Assembly (NCBI RefSeq): GCF_013694095.1
Contig: NZ_JACEFB010000001.1
Span: 248,001 to 312,000, forward strand
Reading direction: 5' to 3'
Origin: Thermogemmata fonticola
Lineage (GTDB): Bacteria > Planctomycetota > Planctomycetia > Gemmatales > Gemmataceae
DNA length: 64,000 bases
The translations under genes and the position numbers were made by a program. The notes under the pieces are model-generated. The model was not told the DNA's origin, made no database searches, and saw nothing but the letters and a program-made list of their open reading frames with translations. Below are positions 29,904 through 32,857 of the stretch, in pieces (the first letter of the stretch is position 1; each line of letters begins with the position of its first letter).

Positions 29904-30012
29904 GCTGGGAAACGTTGACGAAAGCCATGGCGGCAGTTATTTGTGGTATAAAGATATCAATGACTCAAACTTGTGGTCGAGGAGGCCGGAACACGGGTTC
30001 CAGCCCGCCACA

Positions 30013-30062: not shown

Positions 30063-30079
30063 AAGGAGACCTGGCAATC
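30063..30079 (+). promoter_or_regulatory. Strong Shine-Dalgarno that decides an ATC start for infC
   Basis: AAGGAG (30063-30068) lies eight bases before the ATC at 30077. The in-frame stop TAA at 30062-30064 bounds the frame. No ATG, GTG or TTG occurs in frame before the GTG at 30194, which would remove the conserved N-terminus. CTG at 30071 is only two bases from the AAGGAG element, too close. Confidence 0.72.
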
Positions 30080-30754
30080 CCTCCCCCTGATCGTAATACC
30101 CCGCCCCGTGCACCGGCTGGCCCCCGGATCAATGAGCAAATCCGGATTTCCCCTGTTCGCCTCATCGGCGTCAACGGCGAACAACTCGGCATTGTGGAGA
30201 CACGCAAAGCCCTGGAGATGGCCTACGACGCCGGCTTGGACCTGGTGGAAGTGGACGCCCAAGCCCGCCCCCCTGTCTGCAAAATCATGGACTACGGCAA
30301 GTACAAATATGCCCAATCCAAAAAGACCCAGCAAAAGACCCACCAGCCCAAACTCAAAGAAATCCGCGTCCGTCCAAAAACCGGCGAACACGACATCGAA
30401 ACCAAAATCAATCAGGCCCGCAAGATTCTCGAACACCACGATAAGGTCCAGGTGAACGTCCTCTTCCGCGGACGGGAAATGCAGCACATCGAAGAAGGCG
30501 AACGGGTCATGAAGCAAGTGCTGGAAGCCTTGCAAAATGATGCCCGCATCGAAGTCCCCCCGCGCTTGGAGGGGAAGCGGATCACGGCTATTCTGGCTCC
30601 CAAACCGGCTAGCGGGAAAGGGTCGGCTGGCAAAGCCTCTCCCGCTCCGCCAGCGGCTTCCCCTTCCCCGCCTGCCTCCGGGACCGCGGCGCCGGGCACT
30701 ACCTCCGCCCCTAACAATACCCCAGCTTCGCCCGCCCAGAAGGTCTCCTCCTGA
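30077..30754 (+). CDS. infC: Translation initiation factor IF-3 with non-canonical ATC start
   Basis: A 225-residue protein if started at ATC 30077. The N-domain signature (RINEQIRISPVRLIGVNGEQ, GIVETRKALEMAYDAGLDLV) begins at about residue 17, so starting at the GTG at 30194 would delete it. The linker and C-domain follow, with KIMDYGKYKYAQSKK, KEIRVRPKTGEHD, VNVLFRGREMQH and an IEVPPRLEGKRITAIL end. A tail of about 40 residues rich in Pro, Ala and Ser is extra. IF3 binds the 30S subunit, blocks early 50S joining and rejects non-standard start codons. Its own rare start makes the gene self-limiting in E. coli. No rpmI or rplT follows. Confidence 0.93.
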   Translation: MPPPDRNTPPRAPAGPRINEQIRISPVRLIGVNGEQLGIVETRKALEMAYDAGLDLVEVDAQARPPVCKIMDYGKYKYAQSKKTQQKTHQPKLKEIRVRPKTGEHDIETKINQARKILEHHDKVQVNVLFRGREMQHIEEGERVMKQVLEALQNDARIEVPPRLEGKRITAILAPKPASGKGSAGKASPAPPAASPSPPASGTAAPGTTSAPNNTPASPAQKVSS

Positions 30755-30790
30755 ATCGCCCGGAGACCAGCCCTTTCTCCGCCTCGGCGA

Positions 30791-30973
30791 TCGGCGCACG
30801 GGATGGGCCACTAACGCCTGAACACGGGGTGTGGCCGGTGTCACCTGAACACGGGTTGAACCGCTTTCGCCTGAAGACGGGTCAAACTACCCTCACCTGA
30901 ACGTGGATCAGTCCACTTTCGCCTGAACGTGGGTCGGTCCGCTATCGCCTAAACGTGGGGGAACCCGCCACCG
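30791..30973. repeat. Tandem array of about seven degenerate 26-bp units after infC
   Basis: Units start at 30791 (divergent), 30817 (27 bp), 30844, 30870, 30896, 30922 and 30948. Each opens with CCTGAAC or a close variant, then an ACGGG or GTGGG block, and ends with a CCGCTTTCG-like block. Several units can fold through their middle: GTGGA-TCAG-TCCAC in the unit at 30896 and GTGGG-GGAA-CCCGC in the last unit, with changes on both arms. The 26-bp period is not a multiple of three, so it is not coding. The rest of the 370-base gap (30755-31123) between convergent infC and the MFS gene holds nothing recognised. Confidence 0.85.
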
Positions 30974-31123
30974 CCAGAGTCTACCAGCCAGCAGGGAGCG
31001 GTGCTCCCGGTCTCTGCATCGCGTCTTTCCAGGAGTCCGAAGACGAACAGCCCAGTAGGCACCGGCAGACACCGAGCTGTCCATTTCCCCAGAGCAAGGC
31101 CGAGAGGAAGGCTGCCCTCTAAT

Positions 31124-32515
31124 TCAAGCTGACTCCACTGCCGAGGCTTGCTTCGGCGGATGGAACAGCAGTGCGAGGAGAAGGGCCGCCACGAGCGCCG
31201 CACCCATCGAATACTGGAACACCGCCGGGTAGTTGACCATCGTCTTGTCCGGGACTACCGGATTACTCATGACGTAAACCTGGCGCAGATAGCCGCAGAG
31301 AACATTCGCGGCAAAAGGTCCGACTCCCAGGATGAGAACGTTGAACAATCCCTGAGCACTGGCTCGCACATCTTTCGGGAAGAACTCATCCACGAAGATG
31401 TACACCGTGGCGAAGAAAAAGGCATAGCAGATACCGTGGAGGACATTCACAGTGATCGCTGCCCACGGCTCCGGGTAATAGGTGAAGACGGCAAATCGGG
31501 CGGCATGCCCCAACACTCCCAGGATCATGGTCCAGCGCCAGCCGAGGCTCTTGAGGGCGTAGCCGAGAATGAACATGGTGAGGATTTCGGCGATCTGGCC
31601 GATCTTCATCACGGGTCCGACCCAATTGGCCGGGATGTCCACCCAACCGCCGTCTACTTTCGGACCCAGGAAGGTGAAGGTCCAATAGAAGAAGCTCTGG
31701 TGGACGGCCGCATCGATGAAGGTGACCAGAAAGAGGACGGCGATAAAGGGCTTCTTCAGATGGCGCATGGCTTTGAGCCAAGCCAGAGCGTCCGCTGCCG
31801 TCGCTGCCGGTTTGGGAGGCGTATGGGGTAGGCACAGGCTGAAAGCTGCTAGCAGGAGGGAAGCCACCCCCGCAACCAGGAAGATGCACCGCTTCATCGC
31901 CATGGAGTTTTCACCCACCAGCGAGCTGCCCAAAGCGGTACCCAGCCATTGGAAAAATCCCACCTCCGTCATGGGAGGCACGCGGCTCCAATCCACCAGC
32001 AAAAAGATAAAGGGCCAACTCGCCGCGATCCAGCCAATCGTTCCCCAGACGCGTATCGGGCCAAACTGCCGTTGCGGGTCCTGTAAGTTGGCGAAGGCAA
32101 TTGAATTGGTGATGGAAATCGTCGGCACATAAAAGATGGAATGGACCAGCATTAAGCCGAAGAAAGGCCAGAAGAGCAGATTCACCTCCTGGGGATCGTT
32201 CGGATTAGGCCGGATGAAGAACAGGCCCAAGATCGCCACTCCGCCGACCAGATGGCTGAATGCCAGGAACTTTTCCGCTGCGAAGTGCCGGTCCGCAAAC
32301 TGGGTGCTGAAAAAGAGCGCCACCAAAGCGCCGATGTTGAAAGCCCCGAAAATGAGCGGCAGTTGCCAGGTATCCTGGAAGCCTAGCTTCGGGATGTAAT
32401 CGAAACCCAACTCGAACCAGGCGCCCCAGATGAAAAACTGCAAAAACATCATCGTGGACAGTTTGAACCGCAGCAGACCGTCTGCCGGACGCACCGGAGG
32501 ATCCATCGTGCTCAT
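31124..32515 (-). CDS. Nucleoside:H+ symporter-like MFS transporter
   Basis: A 463-residue polytopic inner-membrane protein from the ATG at 32515, with GGGAG about five bases upstream. About twelve hydrophobic segments are present. The first, LSTMMFLQFFIWGAWFELG, and the segment FGPIRVWGTIGWIAA are typical of the NupG/XapB nucleoside permease family. HSIFYVPTISITNSIAF and YIFVDEFFPKDVRASAQGL also fit that group. Planctomycete members usually lack proven substrates; a nucleoside or nucleoside-like solute is the best guess. It is divergent from the ThuA gene and convergent with infC. Confidence 0.85.
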   Translation of the reverse strand: MSTMDPPVRPADGLLRFKLSTMMFLQFFIWGAWFELGFDYIPKLGFQDTWQLPLIFGAFNIGALVALFFSTQFADRHFAAEKFLAFSHLVGGVAILGLFFIRPNPNDPQEVNLLFWPFFGLMLVHSIFYVPTISITNSIAFANLQDPQRQFGPIRVWGTIGWIAASWPFIFLLVDWSRVPPMTEVGFFQWLGTALGSSLVGENSMAMKRCIFLVAGVASLLLAAFSLCLPHTPPKPAATAADALAWLKAMRHLKKPFIAVLFLVTFIDAAVHQSFFYWTFTFLGPKVDGGWVDIPANWVGPVMKIGQIAEILTMFILGYALKSLGWRWTMILGVLGHAARFAVFTYYPEPWAAITVNVLHGICYAFFFATVYIFVDEFFPKDVRASAQGLFNVLILGVGPFAANVLCGYLRQVYVMSNPVVPDKTMVNYPAVFQYSMGAALVAALLLALLFHPPKQASAVESA

Positions 32516-32857
32516 GCCCATCTCCCTGCCAGGATACCGGAACTTTCGTGAAGCCGTAATGCCTACGATGCTAAAGAGTAACCTCCGCATCGGCAAGCGG
32601 AAACATCGGCCAGCGCTGAGGCTATTTCTCCCAGATTCGGAGAGGGGCATTGTGCGGATCGCGCAGGGTCTTCCGCTGGCTCTTGGTTCCCCACGATGCG
32701 GGGAATCCGGCTATTTCTTCTCGCAATTTGCGGGCCAAATTATATATTGGGCCATCAGAAGCTGTCTCTACTCTCCAGGCGGCCGGTGCTCCCCGGACAG
32801 CCTCGTGGAGTGGATGGAGTGAACCCTAACCGTGTATCCCAAAGGTGCAGGCCAGCT
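32516..32857. other. Divergent intergenic region between MFS and ThuA-like genes
   Basis: About 340 bases. An AT-rich island (AAATTATATATTGGG, about 32737-32751) may be a -10 region for the ThuA-like gene, but I see no matching -35. Nothing else was recognised. Confidence 0.35.

Follow-up and report, generated by a model that had tools for sequence, protein, structure and literature searches.

The question raised by this locus is what a tandem array of short units represents directly behind infC in Thermogemmata fonticola, within a stretch of 64,000 nucleotides (the window): a transcriptional structure, a set of protein-binding sites, a piece of mobile repeat or a local expansion. A preliminary description had placed the array between convergent genes and 36 bases after infC. 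Both points are correct, as the infC stop codon ends at 30754 on the plus strand and the 3' end of a gene for an MFS transporter lies at 31124 on the minus strand, leaving a gap of 369 bp (30755-31123) between two 3' ends. A DUF1501 gene was recognised upstream of infC in Pfam. The apparent start codon of infC is ATC (30077-30079), preceded by AAGGAGA (located by eye, maybe a base or two off), and the stretch AAGGAGACCTGGCAATCCCTCCC at the infC start is identical in a same-genus relative, where it lies in the opposite orientation. Unusual start codons of infC are known in other bacteria.

Table 1. Coordinates of the flanking genes and of the array units within the window.
Feature	Position	Strand	Basis or remark
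infC (translation initiation factor IF-3)	30077..30754	+	Pfam IF3_N E 2.6e-31, IF3_C E 7.2e-29; likely ATC start, judged from sequence
Unit u0	30791..30816	+	Decayed, in phase; profile score matched by 0.018% of window sites
Unit u1, 27 bp	30817..30843	+	Unit alignment; model R1, 14.9 bits
Unit u2, 26 bp	30844..30869	+	Unit alignment, model R1
Unit u3, 26 bp	30870..30895	+	Unit alignment, model R1
Unit u4, 26 bp	30896..30921	+	Perfect 5-bp stem in this unit alone; fold z -2.48
Unit u5, 26 bp	30922..30947	+	Unit alignment, model R1
Unit u6, 26 bp	30948..30973	+	Unit alignment, model R1
Convergent MFS transporter, Nuc_H_symport family	31124..32650	-	Pfam E 2.8e-105

Seven head-to-tail units fill 30791-30973 in a register of 26 bp, with the 27-bp u1 as the single exception. 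The self-match of this stretch at lag 26 is 0.624, compared to a mean of 0.261 (sd 0.035) in 1000 dinucleotide shuffles, none of which exceeded 0.446 over lags of 10-60. The array is the top-ranking 156-base periodic stretch of the 64-kb window (0.677, runner-up 0.542, at lags of 12-60), and TRF detected a period of 26 in three overlapping rows that jointly cover 30815-30959. The tandem array of about seven units of some 26 bp, as first described, is therefore borne out, together with the remark that almost all units measure exactly 26 bp, which holds for u2-u6. The better units share the consensus CCTGAAC(A/G)(C/T)GGG, a variable centre and CC(A/G)CTTTCG, and neighbouring units within u2-u6 are 62-85% alike. 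No in-phase unit was found by profile scoring beyond 30973, which thus marks the 3' limit of the array. A coding repeat was ruled out by the 26-base period, rightly noted before as not a multiple of three, and by a TGA stop codon in most units.

Selection on structure had been suggested from paired arms that change together, and the pairs GTGGA/TCCAC (u4) and GTGGG/CCCGC (u6) are indeed present as written, but the stem is unsupported across all units. In the proposed stem, which joins columns 8-12 with 18-22, 76.7% of 30 cells are paired versus 74.4% for shuffled partners. Pairing at least as good arose in 216 of 500 shuffles, and a covariation of at least 0.253, the value of this stem, in 198. 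A longer stem is equalled in 207 (pairing) and 203 (covariation) of 500 shuffles. Sliding the partner by other steps lowered the paired cells to 20-66.7%, as is to be expected because the stem had been read off these same units, and a slide of +3 columns gave a covariation of 0.347, above that of the proposed stem. A conserved hairpin was rejected on this basis, with covariation no better than that of shuffled partners, the outcome that the preliminary description had itself named as speaking against its suggestion.

A bidirectional terminator had also been put forward; such a terminator, or a transcription buffer, would be a chain of hairpins between the convergent genes that ends both transcripts. 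The location between convergent 3' ends is in keeping with such a role, convergent gaps hold somewhat more arrays of this kind per base than other gaps (see below), and u4 alone stood out when six single units were folded as DNA (z -2.48, with 6 of 200 shuffles folding at least as well). However, no terminator-like site, a G+C-rich stem followed by a T run, was found between 29800 and 31400, and the whole array folds as RNA like shuffled sequence on either strand (z -0.21 on the plus and 1.39 on the minus strand), and the same holds for 30755-30990, a longer stretch (z 0.12). With stem covariation the same as in shuffles and the same gene pair present without the array in a sister species, we consider a terminator very unlikely. 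The structural reading as a whole is not supported by the covariation, fold and terminator scans. A known RNA was ruled out by the lack of any Rfam family match for the array; the sole hit was a sub-threshold one to mir-671 within infC (30606-30677, minus strand).

A blastn search with the array against its own genome, which comprises 4.81 Mb in 61 contigs, gave no match below an E value of 1 other than the array itself, and a unit-profile search of the same genome returned the six units and one chance match (E 1.83). A possible further unit at 29986, in the leader of infC, was considered and rejected: it has one mismatch to a 12-base pattern, yet forward counts of 117 against 109 for the control are chance-like, and its profile score is reached at 0.19% of window sites. 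In the sister species of the same genus, the infC/MFS order is kept and the gap is free of the array, with a best local self-match of 0.44 at lag 40. A loose three-unit pattern matched 13 stretches in six of 95 family genomes, its own included; the array repeat is present in three of these stretches, all from its own genome, and the others are different short repeats or coding-like sequence. The unit profile was positive in one of 59 genomes, its own, in a search with 131 candidates scored per genome and with stricter filters that lose weak matches. The search of genome and relatives proposed at the outset thus gave a single locus, recovered neither in the sister gap nor in 94 other family genomes.

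A wider exact-pattern scan of 84,980 species, which may miss diverged relatives of the array elsewhere, gave five stretches, all from one Blastocatellia MAG, SSF51 (L056-L060). This MAG carries a dispersed repeat, CCGCCTGAAGGCGG, which resembles the array in its 26-bp tandem copies containing CGCCTGAA and is the one finding in favour of the array as a fragment of some mobile or dispersed element, REP- or CRISPR-like. However, the Blastocatellia repeat differs from the array in being a near-perfect palindrome around CCTGAAGG, the CCGCCTGAAGGCGG form being a perfect palindrome; it occurs on all five contigs hit, and the rest of its unit is different, so that kinship with the array was rejected. 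As the search pattern itself imposed the 26-bp spacing and the common letters, the likeness is likely a coincidence picked out by that pattern. SSF51 also contains 7-bp tandem repeats. Phages, plasmids and viral contigs gave no match to the array. The single locus in its own genome rules out a dispersed, REP-like element, and a CRISPR was ruled out because the units are diverged and abut directly without unique spacers. Compared to the REP and palindromic extragenic repeats treated in PMC3733652, the array likewise lies outside genes and has short units of partly inverted symmetry, whereas it sits at one locus and shows a Watson-Crick-perfect stem in one unit only. A mobile origin, already largely refuted, is thus extremely improbable. 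Of the mobile or expansion repeat proposed before, the expansion part is supported: the array is a local one in a single copy, it was not recovered in the sister species, and this genome has many arrays of its kind. The mobile part falls with the single genomic copy.

Evidence for constraint was sought along the unit, where CCTGAA, GG and CC are kept and the centre varies. Changes vary more from column to column than under an equal-rate star model, which takes no account of the unit tree, for u1-u6 (p 0.0015) and with u0 included (p 0.012), and the p value is 0.11 for u2-u6 only. None of six other arrays of the genome fell below 0.05 in the identical test, the lowest value being 0.077. This uneven conservation is the sole hint of constraint on the array, and a weak one because related units share changes. 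It would fit an iteron-like protein-binding array with CCTGAAC-(A/G)(C/T)GGG as putative site and the centre as spacer. Such an array seems unlikely, given that the genome holds no further site cluster, that the array was not recovered in relatives and that the unevenness becomes weak when five units are counted.

The array was compared with others in its own genome by scanning 2.064 Mb (the window and 100 stretches) for periods of 15-45 at z > 6.5, in a first sample of 1.264 Mb and a second of a further 0.8 Mb. This yielded 115 arrays (54 + 61). Genes were called with a simple codon-score script whose cut-offs were revised once, all counts being from the final setting; 67 arrays lie within called genes, 65 of them with a period divisible by three. 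Gap arrays with such periods were counted separately, as some are probably missed genes. The first sample has 7 gaps with non-triplet arrays and the second has 16 (with arrays of 17, 20 and 29 bp among the latter), which makes 23 in all; the periods are 17-43, and the units are, by eye, mutually unrelated. The mean identity to the majority base is 0.79 for u2-u6, 0.77-0.83 in five of six other arrays and 0.92 in the sixth. Given so many unrelated gap arrays, several of them equally decayed, the array behind infC is therefore nothing out of the ordinary in this genome, where such arrays are frequent.

Individual arrays include a decayed 23-bp array (L079:13891-13994) in the convergent gap that separates a long gene from one that we take, from its sequence, to be acetyl-CoA synthetase-like, and a 28-bp array in another convergent gap (L080:9620). 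A decayed 21-bp array (L127:5243-5372, C4:85243-85372) of the form AATGACTT-variable-TGTCA, with inverted arms TGAC/GTCA, directly follows a called gene. A tandem repeat at L069:13071-14004, with 6.5 copies of a 144-bp unit and 89% matches, is coding-like and, by eye, TPR-like.

Non-triplet arrays show a weak excess in convergent gaps, in a test made after the first examples had been seen. Counted per gap, they occupy 3 of 145 convergent and 4 of 681 other gaps in the first sample (p 0.11), and 4 of 90 and 12 of 413 in the second (p 0.32); the pooled value is not significant (p 0.095). When triplet periods are included, the counts are 4/145 versus 15/681 in the first sample and 6/90 versus 19/413 in the second. 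Counted per base, convergent gaps contribute 11.5% of the gap sequence and 7 of the 23 array gaps (binomial p 0.013); the figures are 6 of 22 after removal of the infC array (p 0.034) and 4 of 16 for the second sample taken by itself (p 0.11). It is conceivable, if rather improbable, that this genome repeatedly grows unrelated short arrays in convergent gaps, where they would, irrespective of their sequence, buffer opposing transcription or mark slippage-prone sites of polymerase or fork collision.

Taken together, the array is best explained as a species-specific, decaying minisatellite of local origin that needs no function of its own, to which we assign a probability of about 0.82. It consists of head-to-tail units within the 10-100 bp range that repeat beyond chance, lies in the non-coding gap 30755-31123 with a period not divisible by three, and arose locally without dispersal. 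A 26-bp stretch in the infC-MFS gap would have been duplicated head to tail to about seven copies, probably by replication slippage or unequal recombination, after which the copies may have decayed through point mutations and a single 1-bp indel. Such a gap would tolerate the array because, between two 3' ends, neither gene's promoter should lie there. Judging from the sequence, a function of the array is unlikely, and it looks like an ordinary intergenic minisatellite without special structure, one of many unrelated local arrays in this genome. In PMC6749651, bacterial satellites and minisatellites are described as internally regular, with four or more repeats of 10-200 nt; the array, with seven units of 26 bp, resembles those minisatellites in its short head-to-tail units and non-coding gap. 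It is more decayed than a typical VNTR locus and might fail the regularity filter of that work.

By itself, the array matters little, and it could be used as a strain-typing marker. If the excess in convergent gaps is real over many genomes, the birth of minisatellites would be tied to opposing transcription.
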